A stretch of DNA of 40,601 nt from an uncultured Maricaulis sp. (GTDB lineage: Bacteria > Pseudomonadota > Alphaproteobacteria > Caulobacterales > Maricaulaceae): assembly GCF_905480005.1 (NCBI RefSeq), contig NZ_CAJQOO010000026.1, positions 1-40,601 of the forward strand, in the 5' to 3' direction. This document shows, piece after piece, positions 3,399 through 40,252 of this stretch. Below the pieces are notes generated by a model that was given only the letters and a program-made list of their open reading frames with translations, was not told where the DNA came from and did not search any database. The position numbers and the translations under genes were made by a program. Within the stretch, counting starts at the first letter, position 1. Each line of letters opens with the position of its first letter.

Positions 3399-4679
3399 TC
3401 AGTATCGCCAACCCAGTTCGACAAAGGCCGTCACATCGTCGGTCTCGACCTGGCGGCGCCCCGCACTGGTCAGCACCGGGCTGGCCGCCTCTGCAGACTG
3501 CAGACCAAAAGCGACCAGACCATGGTCACCAACCAGACGCGACGTGGCCGCCTGCCAGATCCCGGTGTCCTGGTGGATGAAATCGTCGCTCATGGCCGCG
3601 TATTCGAGCGTGGAGAGCCAATCGCCCTGTTCCCACCCGGCCGACACCGACCAGGCCTCCAGCGCACCGGTCCCGGCCACGCCATTATTGCTGCGCCGCC
3701 AACGCCCGCCAGCACGCCAGGCCTGCCAGCGCCAGGCCAGGCCCGCATCGACACTATTGACGGGGTCGAAGCCAGCCGGACCCTGCACGCCGCCAGCCTG
3801 GCTGGTGGCGAGGCTCGCCGCCCATTCATGATCGCCGCGCCGGATCTGATATGTCAGGGCGAGCTCCGAGACTGCCTCGCTGATTGACCCGGTCTGACCT
3901 CCCGGACCGGTTCGCCGCGGGCAGGTATCAACGCCGCACTGGCTGACTTCAGGCGTGAAGGAGACAGAGGCGCGAAGCGTCCCGACGCTGCTTTCCTGGC
4001 CCAGGGCAATGGAGCGGAAAACCAGCTTGGGGTCATGGCCGGACGCATGGCTCTCCGTGCGGATCGCCCCGGGAGCCGCCGCTACCAGATGGCCACCATC
4101 CGCCCGCACAAGGCGCGCAGTCGCCGGGCCGCCGACTGGATCAAGCCTGGCTGCGCCCGGTCCATAGCCGAGACGCAACTCGCCCCACCCGGTATCAGTG
4201 AAAAGGTAAGCTTCGGAAATCATGCCGCGAACGCGACTTCCGCCTTCAGCTCCATCGCTGAAAAATTCACTGTCTCCGGCAATCGGGGTCGAGGTTGTTG
4301 AGGCCAGCGTCGCGCAATCGCCGCGACCCGCCGGGCATGCGCCGGTACGCCCACCATGGGAAGAAATGTGTTGATCACGCTCGGCATGACCGGCGAGGAC
4401 CCAACCCCAGCGGCGGCCACCTTGGGTGAAGCCCTCGAATTCGACGCCCAGCTCGATATCGCCGAGCCAGGCAGGGCGCGCAGTCGGGGTATCCCCGGCC
4501 AGCAGAACCAGGCCGAGATCGGCTCGCCAGTCGAGACTGTACTCGGCGCCCAGATCAAATGGATCCGACGCTGACGAGACTGAATTGTCTGGAATAACTG
4601 GGCTTTGAGGGAATGCCGGCGGGCCCGCAAGTGTTCCGGACAGAGCGGCGAAGAAAATCGCGCTGGTTGTCCTTCTCAT
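3399..4679 (-). CDS. Porin-like outer-membrane beta-barrel protein
   Basis: A 426-residue secreted protein: signal peptide about 1-24 (ends near PPAFPQ), then alternating aromatic and polar strands such as WGWVLAGHAER, GELRLGYGPGAARLD and AWRWQAWRAGGRWRR. It ends in VELGWRY, the aromatic C-terminus recognised by the BAM machinery. The pattern resembles Gram-negative porins of the porin_4 type; substrate is unknown. Loop segments contain CPAGRGDC and CGVDTC, suggesting disulfide pairs. It lies 104 bases upstream of ntrZ on the same strand. The 264-base region 4680-4943, divergent to the DUF3576 gene, should hold both promoters, but I see no convincing boxes there, only a TTATAC at 4856-4861 without a matching -35. 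Confidence 0.7.
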   Translation of the reverse strand: MRRTTSAIFFAALSGTLAGPPAFPQSPVIPDNSVSSASDPFDLGAEYSLDWRADLGLVLLAGDTPTARPAWLGDIELGVEFEGFTQGGRRWGWVLAGHAERDQHISSHGGRTGACPAGRGDCATLASTTSTPIAGDSEFFSDGAEGGSRVRGMISEAYLFTDTGWGELRLGYGPGAARLDPVGGPATARLVRADGGHLVAAAPGAIRTESHASGHDPKLVFRSIALGQESSVGTLRASVSFTPEVSQCGVDTCPRRTGPGGQTGSISEAVSELALTYQIRRGDHEWAASLATSQAGGVQGPAGFDPVNSVDAGLAWRWQAWRAGGRWRRSNNGVAGTGALEAWSVSAGWEQGDWLSTLEYAAMSDDFIHQDTGIWQAATSRLVGDHGLVAFGLQSAEAASPVLTSAGRRQVETDDVTAFVELGWRY

Positions 4680-32967: not shown

Positions 32968-33387
32968 ATGACCCGACCGCGATTTCACCTGGCCTTCCCC
33001 GTCAATGACCTGGCCGCGGCCCGGCATTTCTACGGGGAGCTTCTGGGCTGTCGTGAAGGTCGGTCGAGTGCGAGTTGGGTCGATTTCGATCTGCATGAAC
33101 ACCAGATAGTGGCTCATTTGGCCCCGGAAGACTGCAAGGCGGCGGCAGTTGGTGCAGTCGATGGCAAACAGGTCCCTGTTCGTCATTTCGGGCTTTTGCT
33201 CGATTGGGCCGACTGGGAAGTCCTCGCCGCCCGCCTCAAGGCTGCCGGTCAGGATTTCATCATTGACCCCTATGTCCGGTTCGAAGGCGAGCCTGGCGAG
33301 CAGGGCACTTTCTTTGTTCGTGACCCTTCCGGCAACGCGCTGGAATTCAAGACATTTCGGGACGAAGCCCAGGTTTTTGCGAGTTAG
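32968..33387 (+). CDS. VOC (glyoxalase/extradiol dioxygenase) family protein
   Basis: A 139-residue two-module VOC protein. Metal or substrate ligand regions are [51 protein letters not shown] and [16 protein letters not shown] with the final Glu. This matches a single-domain-length member that would dimerise to build active sites; the reaction is unknown, and VOC enzymes include isomerases, dioxygenases and resistance proteins. It has an AAAGG ribosome site. It shares the divergent region with hslU and is followed by 294 gene-free bases. Confidence 0.88.
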
Positions 33388-33681
33388 CTGGCGACGGGCG
33401 AGCCGCAGCTCTCCCGCGTGTGAGCTATGGCATGTGCGGTCGATCCGCTTCGGCGTAGCCGGAGCCGGCCCCGTTCAGGTCTAAGGCGATGTCATCATTA
33501 TGGTTGTTGTCGGGAAAAGCCTTGCTCGTTCCACTCGGCACCAAGCGGACCAGAGCCATTTTCGCAGATCCAGGCCGGATCATGGGTTTCGGGGCGTTTC
33601 GGGATGCAATTCGGGCGATGGCGCGCTAGGCTGAACCTGTTCCGGAGACCGATTGTCGGCCTCGACAGGAGATGGGCCCGC
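33388..33681. other. Gene-free stretch after the VOC gene
   Basis: No recognisable gene, RNA or terminator is visible in these 294 bases. AGGAG at 33667-33671, near the right end, is well placed as a ribosome site for an ATG at 33682 and supports the longer form of the following gene. Confidence 0.4.
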
Positions 33682-33741
33682 ATGACGCCGAGCGTTCAAA
33701 GCCAAACGCCCTATGTCCGATGGCTGGCGCGCATATAAATT

Positions 33742-34170
33742 TTGTTATTGCTCGCCCAATCGGCGTATGTGACCGGCTGGGCCTTTGTGGACATCATGGT
33801 GCGCCTCGGGGTCTGGCCTCGCAGCACCGAAGGCTGGGACGCCTACGGTTTCTTCGCGTCGCTCTCTTTCTGGCAGGAAGCCGCCTTCTTCAGCTCGACC
33901 CTATTGGCGCTGGTCAGTGTCTGGCTGCACTGGCGCCGCAGTTTCTGGGTCCTGCCCGTCTATTTCCTGTCCTACCTCTTATACCGGCTCGACAGCTTCC
34001 TGCTCACGCTCAACAGCCTGTTCAATGGCATTGCCGGTGTCGAAACATTCGCTCCCATGCTGATCCTGCAACTGGCACTCCTGCTGGCGCTTATCCTGCT
34101 TTGGGGCGAAGGCTATTTCGATCAGGACCGGTTCCGCTTCTGGCGCAAAGGCCCGCCTGCTGATCGCTGA
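33742..34170 (+). CDS. Small membrane protein of unknown family, possibly interrupted at its start
   Basis: The open part has 142 residues with about four hydrophobic segments (about 1-22, 41-62, 70-88, 103-121) and a basic C-terminal tail. I do not recognise the family. Two starts are possible. ATG 33682, with a good AGGAG, opens 18 codons in the same frame but ends at TAA 33736; beyond it ATT and TTG 33742 carry the frame on. If the TAA replaced a sense codon, one protein of about 162 residues would be natural. Otherwise translation begins at TTG 33742, without a ribosome site. The gene lies in the hslU-hslV gap. Confidence 0.55.
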   Translation: MLLLAQSAYVTGWAFVDIMVRLGVWPRSTEGWDAYGFFASLSFWQEAAFFSSTLLALVSVWLHWRRSFWVLPVYFLSYLLYRLDSFLLTLNSLFNGIAGVETFAPMLILQLALLLALILLWGEGYFDQDRFRFWRKGPPADR

Positions 34171-34242: not shown

Positions 34243-35097
34243 TTACCGGCCCGCTGACGCCGTGAAACGGGCCATGTCCGGCACCCAATCAAGCATCACC
34301 TGACCGGTTTCCACATTCAGGAAATTGTGGTCCGCCTGCTCAACGAGAATGTACTGATAGGGCTGTCCTGCCGAAGCGAGGGTTTCAATTATCTCGATAT
34401 CAAGCCTCGACGGGTTGCTGTCATCGCGCTCGCCCAGAACCCAGAGCATCGGAATTGACGCCTGTGCCAGGTCGCAAGCCGGATCATATCCGACCGCCCC
34501 GGCCTGGTTCGGTGTCATTTCAAGCGCGGCATCGATCGACAGGCCCGTATCGGTCAAGGCGTCGAACGTATCGGAGATCGAAACCGAGCTCGCACCGCCA
34601 ACCAGGCTGACGGCAAAGTCAATCGAGTCCGAGCGCGCCGCTGCCGCGGCATTGATCCATCCACCCATGCTCGAACCGACAATTCCGATCCGGTCATAGC
34701 CCAATTCATCGAGATGGTCGGTGATCGCGACCAGGTCTGCGCCGAGGGCGGGAATCAGCCAAGCGCTATTGGACGTATTGGGGACAGTCGAACGCCCGGA
34801 TGAGCCGCCAAAGCCTCGGCGATCATAAATGGCGACAGCGGTTGTTTCATTCAGGAAGAGACCGATCGCCGCAGAGGTGTCGGTGCGCACGCCAACCCCG
34901 GATCCGCCGGAGATGACGAGGACGGTTTCCGGGTCAGAACCTGGCAATTGGTGCACTTCGCCGGCTATCCGGCCCTCCGGTGAGGGCGCTTCAAACGGGA
35001 TGACCGGATTTTCGACCGGCGGCTCGGCTCGCAGGGTCGCAGGCAAGGCGAGACTGGCAAATGTTGCAAGGAAGAGAGGGCGCAGCAGATTAGGCAT
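34243..35097 (-). CDS. Secreted alpha/beta hydrolase (esterase/peptidase-like)
   Basis: A 284-residue exported hydrolase: signal peptide about 1-24 ending TLRA, then TVLVISGGSGVGV with the oxyanion strand, AIYDRRGFGGSSGR, the nucleophile elbow GSSMGG, a late GERDDSNPS aspartate loop and the histidine in EQADHNFLNVETG. These are the alpha/beta hydrolase triad; substrate is unknown. The ATG at 35097 has GGAG 8 bases upstream; ATGs at 35109 and 35160 are less well placed. It follows the membrane AraC gene on the same strand by 59 bases, which may regulate it. Confidence 0.83.
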   Translation of the reverse strand: MPNLLRPLFLATFASLALPATLRAEPPVENPVIPFEAPSPEGRIAGEVHQLPGSDPETVLVISGGSGVGVRTDTSAAIGLFLNETTAVAIYDRRGFGGSSGRSTVPNTSNSAWLIPALGADLVAITDHLDELGYDRIGIVGSSMGGWINAAAAARSDSIDFAVSLVGGASSVSISDTFDALTDTGLSIDAALEMTPNQAGAVGYDPACDLAQASIPMLWVLGERDDSNPSRLDIEIIETLASAGQPYQYILVEQADHNFLNVETGQVMLDWVPDMARFTASAGR

Positions 35098-35156
35098 CGG
35101 GGACTCCATGACCGGTTGTGTCCCGCACTCTTGCCGCAAAGCGTGCGCCGAGCGCC

Positions 35157-36239
35157 TCACTTTGCAAAGTGAGACGCGCGAAACTCGGTTGGAGATTGTC
35201 CCGTCACGGATTTGAAGGATCGGTTGAAGGCAGCCTTGCTATTGAATCCGCATGACAGCGCGATGGCCAGAATGGTTTCATCCTGATCGCTGACCAGGCG
35301 TCGTTTGGCATCCTCGACCCGCAAAGTATTGAGCCAGGCCTTCACATTGAGTCCGGTTTGCGCGTTGATCACATAGGACAGGTAGTGCGGCTGGAAACCG
35401 GTAAGCTCGGCAAGGCGGGACACCGTCAATTGCGGCTCCAGGTGCAGGCGCGAATCCGCCACCGCGTCCCGGATGTCGGCAAAGAGCCGCTCGGTTGTTC
35501 CCGTATCCAGCAAGGCCTCGCTGTCCCGGGAGGGCGTCGTTTGATCACGACTGTCGGGGATGAAGGCGAAGGCGCGCCAATTGGTCAGAGCAACCAGCGA
35601 GAGACTGTACAGGAAGACGGCGAGCCCGATCGTGGCAAGCAGGTCGGAGGACACGGGTAGTCGGTCGACCAGGTGCTCGGTGGCAAAACTGGCAGCAACC
35701 AGAAGGACGAAGGCGAGGAAGCCCAGGATCGACCAGAAAGCGCAGCGGCCAAGTGTGGAGCGGGGCAATTGCCAGAGCACCCAGAGCGTCGCGATCAGAT
35801 AGCCCAGCAGTCCAACCGCTTTGGACAGGCCAAGCAGGCTTGTTTCGATCGGTATGGAATGGGTGGCGTTCACGAAGGCGATCTTGTCCGCTCCGGAGAG
35901 CGCATAGAAAGGCAGGAAGTAGACCAGAGCCAGCGCGGCCGGAAGGGCATGCAAGGCGGACCAGCGCAGTTCGAAGGGCTGGACAAGGGAGCGGGCAAAT
36001 AACCAGATGCCCGGCCCGATCAGGTATGGCATCCAGGTCGTCGCGCGCAGGATATGGGGAAATTGCCGCCAGCCGCCGCTCTCGACAATCCATTCTTCGA
36101 TGACAATCGCCATCGCAGCGATCAACGCTGTCAGAAGGGCGGCGAATCCCACCGGATTGCGATTGCGGGCCCGTAACAGCGCCGCCGCGAGGACCAGACC
36201 CTGGATCAGTCCAAGCGCTGCGAGAATGTGAAGAATCAC
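35157..36239 (-). CDS. AraC-family regulator with N-terminal multi-pass membrane domain
   Basis: A 360-residue protein. Residues 1-220 contain about seven hydrophobic segments (for example LHILAALGLIQGLVLAAALL at the start, then WMPYLIGPGIWLFA, LPAALALVYFLPFYAL). The C-terminal 110 residues form an AraC-type double helix-turn-helix: LAELTGFQPHYLSYVIN, LRVEDAKRRLV, AIALSCGFNSKAAFNRSFK and TGQSPTEFR. This one-component, membrane-bound type is common in Gammaproteobacteria and Alphaproteobacteria, usually near an envelope or hydrolase gene. The hydrolase gene downstream is a plausible target. The ligand is unknown. hslV lies 80 bases upstream, on the same strand. Confidence 0.9.
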   Translation of the reverse strand: MILHILAALGLIQGLVLAAALLRARNRNPVGFAALLTALIAAMAIVIEEWIVESGGWRQFPHILRATTWMPYLIGPGIWLFARSLVQPFELRWSALHALPAALALVYFLPFYALSGADKIAFVNATHSIPIETSLLGLSKAVGLLGYLIATLWVLWQLPRSTLGRCAFWSILGFLAFVLLVAASFATEHLVDRLPVSSDLLATIGLAVFLYSLSLVALTNWRAFAFIPDSRDQTTPSRDSEALLDTGTTERLFADIRDAVADSRLHLEPQLTVSRLAELTGFQPHYLSYVINAQTGLNVKAWLNTLRVEDAKRRLVSDQDETILAIALSCGFNSKAAFNRSFKSVTGQSPTEFRASHFAK

Positions 36240-36983: not shown

Positions 36984-39077
36984 TTATTCGTTGACGGCGC
37001 GATCGGAATAGCTGTCCGAGGCAAAGGCGACAAAGTCGGTTGCCGGCATCGGGCGGGCGAACAGGAAGCCCTGGGCCAGGGTCGCGCCCTGACTGCGCAG
37101 CATCTCGTACTGCTCTGCCGTTTCCACGCCTTCGGCGACGGTTTCCAGTTTCAGGGACTTGGCCATGGCCAGAATGGTCTCGACAACGATGCGGGCATGA
37201 TGATCGGTGGTCATGTCGCGCACAAAGCTCTGGTCAATCTTGAACACGTCGAACGGCATGCGCGTCAGATAGGCGAGCGAGGAGTGACCGGTTCCGAAAT
37301 CATCGATGGCGAAATTGACGCCGCGGTCGCGCAATGGCTGAACCTGTTCGATCACGCGCTCGGGGTTTTCCATGGCAATGGATTCGGTCAGTTCCAGTTC
37401 GAGCAGGTGCGGCGGAAGATTGGCCGCGGCCAGCGCATCGAGCACAGAGTCCGAGAAACCGTCGCGATCAAACTGCATCGCCGAGACATTCACCGCGACC
37501 GGAATTTCAAGACCACGCTCGCGCCAGGCGGCAGCTTCGCGGCAGGCGGCGCGCAGGACCCAGTCACCGATCTCACCAATCAGGCCACATTCCTCGGCGG
37601 CTTCGATGAAGGCGCCTGGGGAGAGAAGTCCTGCGGTCGGGTGCTGCCAGCGCACAAGCGCCTCGGCCCCCGCGCAGGCCCCGTCCTTCATGAGGACCTT
37701 GGGCTGGTAAAAGACGACCAGCTGGTCCTGGGCGACGGCATCGCGCAGTTCATTTTCCAGCACCAGGCGCTCGAAAGCGGACTGGTTCATGCTCGGTTCG
37801 AAGAATTGTGCGGACGATCCACCGGCGCGCTTGGCATGAGCCATGGCGAGGTCGGCATGGCGCATCAGTGTCTCCGGATCGGCCCCGTCCTGCGGGAAGA
37901 CTGCGACCCCGATCGACACACCGAGAAAGACCTGGTGGCCGGAGATCTCGAAGGGCAGACGGATGGCATCGACCAGCTTGTTGGCGACCCGGGCAGCGTC
38001 GGCGCTGTCCTGGATATTGGGCAGCAGCGCGGTGAACTCGTCTCCACCGAGGCGGGCCACCATGGACGGGTCCTCGACACTGCCGGCAGCGAGGTCACAG
38101 CCACGTGTGACTTCGGAGAGCCGACGTCCGACCATTTCCAGCAGGCGATCGCCTTCGCCGATACCCAGCGAGTCATTGACCCGCTTGAAGCGGTCGAGGT
38201 CCAGGAAGAGCACGGCACCCGAGGAGCCGACTTCCAGCGACTTGCGGGCCACGCGCTCGGTTTCCTTGCGGAAGCGTTCGCGGTTCGGCAGCTCGGTGAC
38301 AAGGTCCACATAGGCGAGGCGATGGATGCGTTTCAGATTGCCGTCGAGGCGGGCGAACATGCGATTGAACGCATTCGCCAGAACTTCCAGCTCGTCGCCG
38401 GTCTTCACCTTGATGCGCATGTCGAGATTCTTCGACGAGGCGAGGCGGGCGGCATCGGTCAGGGTCTGAACAGGGCGCAGGGCACGACCGACGATCAGCG
38501 CCGCCAGCGGCAGGAAAATACCCAGCGCGAACAGGGCAATCAGGGTCTGGCGCTGGATTGCGGCATTGCGTGAAGCCGCGAGCTCGACCAGCGGCTGCTG
38601 CATGTAGACGACGCCGACCAGGCGGCGCGACTGGGTATAGACCGGAGCCGAAACCTCAAGAAGACCGTCATGGAGATCATAGCGAAGATCGCCGGCGCCG
38701 AGTGACATGACGGCGATGTCGGCCGCGCGAAGCTGACCCTGCTCGCGCTCATCACCATAGGCTTCACCGAGGACTTCACGGCGATTGTTCAGCACGTAGA
38801 GCTGGGACGCGCCGATCGAGGTGATCAGTTCTTCGATATAGAGGTCGACATGGGTCGCGTCATTTGTGGAAACAGGAATGGCGAGCCGGCTGGCCGAGGC
38901 CTGCAATGTGGCTACCGAACGCTCGATGAGGAGGTTTCGCGTCTCGCGTTGGGCGGACACGCTTTCCAGCGTCATCAGCATGAGTGTTGTCGCAAAGATC
39001 AACGCGCCGGTCAGAAGCGTGAACTTCATCACCAGCGAGCGCATGACTCGAGCAACCGCTTTGCGGATGGGTGCCAT
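36984..39077 (-). CDS. Membrane HAMP-GGDEF-EAL cyclic-di-GMP protein
   Basis: A 697-residue signalling protein: N-terminal membrane segment (about 17-36), a periplasmic sensor (about 45-175), a second membrane segment (about 180-200), HAMP (200-250), GGDEF and EAL. The diguanylate cyclase site is intact (ARLGGDEF), as is the phosphodiesterase site: [33 protein letters not shown] and DQSFVRDM. Both are complete, so net activity is unclear. Between RGCD (I-site-like RxxD) and [10 protein letters not shown] lies a 10-residue insert. The 168-base upstream gap contains several TTAA motifs, one as TTAACCAC on the minus strand, a possible CtrA half-site. Confidence 0.93.
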
Positions 39078-39187
39078 ATTAACCCCTGAACGCGCCCCCG
39101 TGAGGTCGCGTAATCGCCACCAAACTCCGGATGAATATCGCTACTCACCCGTTCTCAGTGACAAGCATCTCAGCAACCACTTGAATT

Positions 39188-39217
39188 GTGGTTAAAGTGC
39201 CGGAGTTAAATCGTTAA
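39188..39217. promoter_or_regulatory. TTAA cluster upstream of the GGDEF-EAL gene
   Basis: TTAA occurs at 39192-39195, 39206-39209 and 39214-39217, and TTAACCAC on the minus strand covers 39188-39195. The last resembles the CtrA half-site TTAACCAT with one mismatch. The spacings (10 and 4) are not the standard N7, so this is a weak candidate. Confidence 0.25.
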
Positions 39218-39244
39218 GTTTTTAGGCAAATGCCCTGAATACCT

Positions 39245-40252
39245 TTATTCAAAGGTGACCCCGCCGGACTCCGCGAGTGATTTCAACCCCGTTTCGGGTC
39301 TTGCGCCATAGTGCGAGATGATTTCCGCGGCACAGATCGCCCCCATTCGACCCGCTTCGGTGAGGGGCCGGTCCTGGGCCAGACCGAGCAGGAAGCCAGC
39401 AGCAAAGAGATCGCCGGCGCCGGTGGTGTCGACCAGTTTGGAGACCGGTACTGCCGCGACCGTGACCATCTCTGCGCCGCGGGCAATGACGGCGCCCTTC
39501 TCCGAGCGTGTGACGGCCACCACGGCCACGTCCTCGCGGGCCTGGGCCATGGCCGTGTCGAAATCCTCGGTCTCGTAGAGCGCCTTGATCTCTGCCTCAT
39601 TGGCCAGAAGGATGTCGATATGATTGGCGACCAAGTGGCGGAATGCTGCCCGGTGACGTTCCACGCAGAACAGGTCGGACAGGGTCAGAGCGGTGCGGCG
39701 CTTGTGGGCAGCGGCCATCTCGGCGGCGGCAACATAGCCGCGCTTGGCTTCCTCGCGATCGAAGAGGTAGCCTTCCAGATAGATGATTTCAGAGGCTTGA
39801 AGGGCTGCGGCACCGGCCGCGACGTCTTCCTCGGTCACCAGGGCAGCCGCGCCCAGGAAGGTCGACATGGAGCGTGCCGCATCCGCTGTGACATTGATCA
39901 GGCAGCGCGCGGTTGCCGGGCCGTTCTTCAGCGGAGGCGTGTCAAAAAATACGCCAACCGTGCGGATATCATGGGTGAAAATCTCGCCCAGCTGATCGTC
40001 CGCGACCTTGCCGATATAGGCCGCCTTGCCGCCCAGTGAGGCGATCCCGGCGACGGTATTTGCCGCCGAGCCGCCCGAGGCCTCCTTGCCGGGCTGCATG
40101 CGTTCATACAGCGTGCGGGCCCGATCCTCATCGATCAGTGTCATGGCGTCCTTGGCGATGCCCTCGGCGGCCAGGAAGGCGTCGGTGGCGGGCGAGAGAA
40201 CGTCGACAATGGCATTGCCCACGGCAAGCACGTCAAAACGGGTATCGGACAT
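39245..40252 (-). CDS. Adenosine kinase-like PfkB family carbohydrate kinase
   Basis: A 335-residue PfkB/ribokinase-fold kinase. It opens FDVLAVGNAIVDVL; the substrate glycines are SGGSAANTVAGIASLG; late blocks are LLANEAEIKALYE, VVAVTRSEKGAVI and the ATP/anion hole DTTGAGDLFAAGFLLGL with the catalytic aspartate. Proteins of this type are often annotated as adenosine kinase in alphaproteobacteria; the substrate is inferred, and other nucleosides or sugars are possible. It starts 101 bases from the divergent ATP-grasp-like gene and ends 168 bases before the GGDEF-EAL gene. Confidence 0.88.
   Translation of the reverse strand: MSDTRFDVLAVGNAIVDVLSPATDAFLAAEGIAKDAMTLIDEDRARTLYERMQPGKEASGGSAANTVAGIASLGGKAAYIGKVADDQLGEIFTHDIRTVGVFFDTPPLKNGPATARCLINVTADAARSMSTFLGAAALVTEEDVAAGAAALQASEIIYLEGYLFDREEAKRGYVAAAEMAAAHKRRTALTLSDLFCVERHRAAFRHLVANHIDILLANEAEIKALYETEDFDTAMAQAREDVAVVAVTRSEKGAVIARGAEMVTVAAVPVSKLVDTTGAGDLFAAGFLLGLAQDRPLTEAGRMGAICAAEIISHYGARPETGLKSLAESGGVTFE

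Follow-up and report, generated by a model that had tools for sequence, protein, structure and literature searches.

Reading frame of the membrane-protein gene

The question raised by this locus is whether a membrane-protein gene of an uncultured Maricaulis sp. has been cut short by a real nonsense mutation, or whether the in-frame TAA after its eighteenth codon is a sequencing error, part of a reinitiation device, or irrelevant to a gene that starts at a TTG just beyond it. The DNA analysed was the whole of positions 1-40,601 on the forward strand of contig NZ_CAJQOO010000026.1 (GCF_905480005.1), 40,601 nucleotides referred to here as the window. The assembly consists of 189 contigs with 94% completeness. 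The closest syntenic orthologue of the gene, L004, lies in the Maricaulis genome G015 and matches at 68% over the body of the gene; two further syntenic orthologues are L005 and L006. The features of the interrupted gene are as follows.

33667-33671, + strand: AGGAG, the likely ribosome-binding site of the original gene, with a 10-base spacing to ATG 33682
33682-33735, + strand: 18-codon leader MTPSVQSQTPYVRWLARI, read as the true ancestral N-terminus (the tail and the start of helix 1) and colinear with L004
33736-33738, + strand: in-frame TAA, at a position occupied by Ser in L004 and by Ala in L005 and L006
33733-33750, + strand: AT-rich patch spanning the stop, with 2 G+C of 18 and including the rare codons ATA and TTA
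33742-34170, + strand: remaining membrane-protein gene, an open frame from TTG 33742 to TGA 34168-34170 with four predicted membrane helices

The original prediction of 18 codons, a TAA at 33736 and a frame that continues beyond it was confirmed, as the body downstream of the TAA contains no further stop before the TGA at 34168-34170. The AGGAG ahead of ATG 33682 is present, but its 10-base spacing is rather long for the good ribosome site that had been described. As predicted, no ribosome site was seen before TTG 33742. This TTG had also been called the only late start, which did not hold, since in-frame TTG 33748, GTG 33769, GTG 33787 and ATG 33796 follow it; use of any of these except TTG 33748 would remove part of the first membrane helix.

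The AT-rich patch is one of three such places across the 40.6-kb window, and the gene is otherwise GC-rich. The codons flanking the stop are rare, with ATA accounting for 12 and TTA for 4 of the 5,593 codons in 13 window genes. Relaxed selection at this place and chance could each account for the patch, and neither is preferred.

Comparison of the leader and the stop position with relatives

L004 starts at its own ATG just after a GGAGG. The codon alignment with L004 runs ungapped from the Met past the stop, and the TAA faces TCA (Ser), from which it is one substitution apart. Consistent with this, a blastn comparison of the window with G015 gave a single alignment that begins at 33705 and runs through the stop. 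L005 and L006, which belong to Maricaulis parjimensis DSM 16078 and a Maricaulis MAG, carry GCC (Ala) opposite the TAA, so that all three syntenic orthologues have a sense codon at this position (TCA, GCC and GCC). Compensating indels were considered in view of the AT-rich patch and dropped, because the conserved Arg and Tyr on either side of the stop are equally many codons apart in L004, L006 and the window; L005 has no such Arg ahead of the stop, yet is ungapped there too.

After the Met, the leader shares seven of its 17 residues with L004, a score reached in 15 of 200,000 permutations. Of 81,096 stretches of 17 residues taken from the window in six frames, the leader was the best match to the L004 leader, and the runner-up reached 6 identities. 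Similarity to the more distant orthologues was weak (5/16 in L006, and 4/18 in L005 with one gap in the leader). The proposed homology of the leader is drawn mainly from L004, from its position and from the open frame. Because L004 aligns without gaps from its own ATG and has a Ser at the TAA, the leader is taken to belong to the gene.

The comparison was extended to 30 loci drawn from the 43 other family matches described below. Each of the 30 stays open over the interval that begins five codons ahead of the stop position and ends where the match starts, the stop position being an ungapped projection for distant paralogues. An in-frame ATG lies upstream of the TTG position in 27 of them by hand count, the exceptions being L006, L028 and L029. 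Where the original prediction had looked for relatives that start at the TTG position and share nothing with the leader, the opposite was seen: the leader of G015 is colinear and similar, and the 30 frames extend upstream. The leader, together with the sense codons of the relatives, therefore points either to a nonsense mutation or to an error of sequencing or assembly. Of the four readings initially offered, these two are favoured, and a native TTG start and a conserved reinitiation device are unsupported. A conserved leader-peptide, attenuation or reinitiation device was dropped because none of the 30 family loci has a stop there.

Membrane-protein family and predicted structure

Hydropathy analysis of the window protein yielded four segments, in agreement with the four-segment membrane protein described originally; the same rule applied to L004 gave five overlapping peaks. 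A structure model of the TTG-started form, built from a three-sequence alignment (mean pLDDT 72), predicted long helices at residues 2-21, 43-64, 70-93 and 104-122. Comparison of this model with solved structures returned no match at E <= 0.001 (best E 3.4). Pfam gave no match for the window protein at E 0.1 and none at E 1 for three orthologues; the paralogue L020 had a single weak match that fell short of the cut-off (E 0.13). NCBIfam gave none for the window protein at E 1, and two orthologues produced weak matches that were far below the cut-off.

Matches turned up in 17 of the 61 genomes searched, counting that of the window, and all 17 are Maricaulis; besides the gene itself there were 43 matches. 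A profile search based on 13 members placed the family in 18 of the 137 genomes of the taxonomic family, all Maricaulis and amounting to 18 of the 19 genomes of the genus. Four of the profile matches lie in the window genome. At the DNA level only the window copy matched, and no second copy that might have carried an intact allele was found in that genome at E <= 0.001. A scan of viral contigs found no relative, and a viral origin of the membrane gene was dropped on this result. By these searches the gene belongs to a four-helix membrane family seen in Maricaulis alone and lacking a Pfam match, and its product would by inference be an accessory inner-membrane protein.

Other members of the family show irregularities of their own. 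Those at G002:C11:6645-7072 (L041/L042) and G007:C70:12155-12557 look split between two frames and are probably broken too, and L017, one of the 30 loci, is also broken, further downstream. Close same-strand pairs of family members occur at G001:C13:170989-171895, G012:C137:3265-4167, G011:C7:18850-19734 and G015:C1:883959-884988, which suggests tandem duplication or a two-subunit form.

Distribution of the gene at its locus in Maricaulis

Three neighbouring genes were used to describe the locus.

32968-33387, + strand: glyoxalase-superfamily gene (PF00903), the conserved upstream neighbour and the anchor for finding the locus in relatives
34243-35160, - strand: alpha/beta hydrolase gene, the downstream neighbour, common to G016 and G009 here and not found in the corresponding syntenic segments of G015, G005 and G001
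35157-36239, - strand: AraC-type regulator gene (PF12833), with the same distribution as the alpha/beta hydrolase gene

The neighbourhood is syntenic with G015, G005 and G001, and the membrane gene lies beside the glyoxalase gene and between genes that we take to be hslU and hslV. Apart from the glyoxalase, the neighbours are presumably mltA-like, smr-like, hslU, hslV and GGDEF genes. Identity of hslV to its relatives is 85-98%. The hydrolase and AraC-type genes (34243-36239, - strand) sit between the membrane gene and hslV; their identities with G016 and G009 are 73-75% and 80-81%, and at E <= 1e-40 the AraC-type gene was found in 3 of the 19 Maricaulis genomes, counting that of the window.

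The glyoxalase gene was located in all 19 Maricaulis genomes, and the 1.5 kb downstream of it was scanned with the family profile. The membrane gene was found within this distance in 4 of the 19 (the window genome, G015, G001 and G005) and was not at that place in the other 15, one of which, G010, is represented by a contig that begins inside the glyoxalase gene. A tree was built from HslU and the glyoxalase of 18 genomes, G010 being left out because its contig lacks HslU. G016 is the sister of the window genome (support 95/96), and G009, G015, G016 and the window genome form a group of four whose inner order was not resolved. The sister G016 lacks the gene, with 83 bases between blastn alignments where the window has 869. 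G009 lacks it as well, with 1,352 bases that contain no family match where the window has 864. The roughly 1.35 kb that replaces the gene in G009 (L044, 5598-6951) has frames that, on inspection of the translation, resemble a membrane protein and a small regulator of winged-helix type.

Presence of the gene on the tree requires four changes, and its clustering does not exceed that of shuffled data (500 of 500 as low). Because its position is identical and the proteins are similar in both halves of the tree, the pattern suggests an old gene with several losses; gain through exchange at one and the same site could also account for it. With the gene present at the locus in 4 of 19 genomes and missing from the sister G016 and from G009, it looks dispensable.

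Nonsense codons elsewhere in the window

Thirty-nine stretches of the window (11,655 aa) were matched to open frames of G015 and screened for stops. Six of these hold stops, 13 in all. Two of the six, 1722-2888 with four stops and 39069-39308 with five, look like shadow or non-coding frames. In three others the stop falls within the first ten alignment columns and was read as sequence before the start. Of these five readings, the one checked was that of 3399-4679, whose ATG comes after the stop. On this reading, the membrane gene would hold the sole clear nonsense codon among the 39 G015-matched stretches. On this evidence, nonsense errors do not look frequent in the assembly.

Initiation context of TTG 33742

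The first start codon beyond the TAA at 33736-33738 is TTG 33742, at a distance of three bases. The predicted structure of the 60 bases around it (-20.0 kcal/mol) is stronger than that of about 81% of windows along the gene, compared with -16.6 kcal/mol at ATG 33682, -16.0 kcal/mol at TTG 33748 and a gene average of -15.7 kcal/mol. An evolved initiation region at the TTG, sought as low structure, was not found, despite the AT-rich DNA.

TTG is an allowed start in bacteria, and UUG can serve as a restart codon. In E. coli lacI, restarts that follow early nonsense codons are classical and were reportedly described by Platt et al. in 1972. For E. coli gene pairs, termination-reinitiation requires overlap or very short distances and drops steeply with distance; at 2 nt, three pairs lost 5, 20 and 70% (PMC10666635). 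For reinitiation, 15 nt from the end of the upstream gene are enough (PMC10666635). Since reinitiation works at very short distances, the three-base gap at this locus would be permissive.

Selection on the remaining frame

Over the body, comparison with L004 gave dN 0.30 and dS 1.85 (136 codons, with dS near saturation), and over the leader dN 0.50 and dS 1.04 (18 codons only). When amino-acid changes were polarised with two outgroups, 15 fell on the window lineage and 13 on that of L004 under a relaxed rule, and 6 and 4 under a strict one. Codon-position counts were 10/8/13 for the window and 8/5/13 for L004. These comparisons gave no clear sign of relaxed selection after the stop, the excess being too small to mean anything. 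The lack of clear extra decay therefore indicates that the event is recent, that a truncated protein is still selected, or that the stop is an error. The claim made here is limited to a disrupted gene and does not extend to an old pseudogene, because relaxed selection was not seen and a recent event would not show it.

Discussion

We propose that this is an ordinary Maricaulis gene for a four-helix membrane protein, cut after codon 18 by a nonsense codon and now either a pseudogene or a poorly expressed truncated gene. We give this reading a probability of about 0.78, a figure that includes a weak accidental restart and so overlaps in part with the restart explanation considered below. Ribosomes that start at ATG 33682 would end at 33736 with the release of an 18-residue peptide; a few of them may resume at TTG 33742 and produce an N-truncated protein of 142 residues that would lack the positively charged tail. 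The gene would then be a pseudogene or a poorly expressed truncated gene that is being lost. We infer that a real mutation of fairly recent date, and not a base error, put the stop into a weakly selected accessory gene. Against this proposal, the body shows no sign of long decay, which fits a recent event, a working truncated protein or a base error equally; the similarity of the leader to the two more distant orthologues is weak; and an assembly of 189 contigs and 94% completeness leaves room for error.

It is unlikely in our judgement that the real gene is intact and that the TAA reflects a mistake in sequencing or assembly, or else a minority allele in a mixed assembly, although a single substitution separates the TAA from the L004 codon, the body is intact in other respects and shows no clear acceleration, and the genome is a draft. 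The absence of another clear nonsense codon from the G015-matched stretches makes the local error rate look low. A sister genome without the gene at this locus makes real inactivation unsurprising. The ATA, ATT and TTA codons around the stop also differ from L004, so that the stop does not stand out as a single odd base in otherwise conserved sequence. We regard the stop as probably a real mutation.

If the mutation is real, ribosomes that terminate at the TAA might resume at TTG 33742 at a rate sufficient for a working N-truncated protein, and the gene would remain functional. The three-base distance and the lacI precedent are in keeping with this, the TTG-started form would, in the predicted model, keep most of helix 1, and the body is not clearly decaying faster than L004. 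However, no ribosome site was seen before the TTG, the surrounding region is predicted to be more structured than most of the gene and does not look like an evolved initiation region, the family frames extend upstream with an in-frame ATG in 27 of 30 loci, and the positively charged tail would be lost. Such reinitiation is improbable, and slightly less probable still is a functional stop-restart, made up of the stop and the TTG, in place of the former normal start, which would leave the gene shortened and not killed. A weak accidental restart at the TTG is possible, and a selected restart device is unlikely. The remaining explanation, that TTG 33742 is the native start and the 18-codon leader ORF arose by chance, agrees with TTG being an allowed start and with the mechanical listing of a 142-residue ORF from that codon. 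It was ruled out as highly implausible by the leader shared with L004, which is colinear and similar to the N-terminus of that protein, and by the upstream-running frames of the family with their upstream ATGs, and here too the missing ribosome site stands against it.

As a gene interrupted by a nonsense codon, the locus resembles the single-stop pseudogenes generally described in bacteria, in having intact relatives, one in-frame stop, a still recognisable gene, a patchy presence and absence from the sister genome. It differs from them in the very early position of the stop, with a start codon three bases on, so that the coding loss may be partial, and in that no decay of the remainder was seen. 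It shares with the lacI restarts an early nonsense codon followed by an in-frame start that is able to give a truncated protein, whereas the candidate start here is a TTG with no visible ribosome site. The close or overlapping genes of the E. coli study likewise have a stop and a start a few bases apart, but they are pairs of separate genes (PMC10666635); here both pieces belong to a single gene, and the arrangement is absent from all 30 family loci compared. A broken accessory membrane gene is ordinary in kind.

The most useful result is that the 142-residue TTG-started ORF appears, from comparison with its relatives, to be a truncated gene and not a native one. A gene finder could list it as an intact 142-residue protein, hiding the interruption. 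If a stop-restart does operate, each ribosome would make an 18-residue peptide and some would then make the tail-less protein, perhaps with an altered topology or at a lower dose, and the locus would be a natural test of how far termination-reinitiation at a weak codon softens early nonsense mutations. For Maricaulis itself, the finding would mean one more accessory membrane gene that is apparently going, at a locus that is empty in the sister genome.
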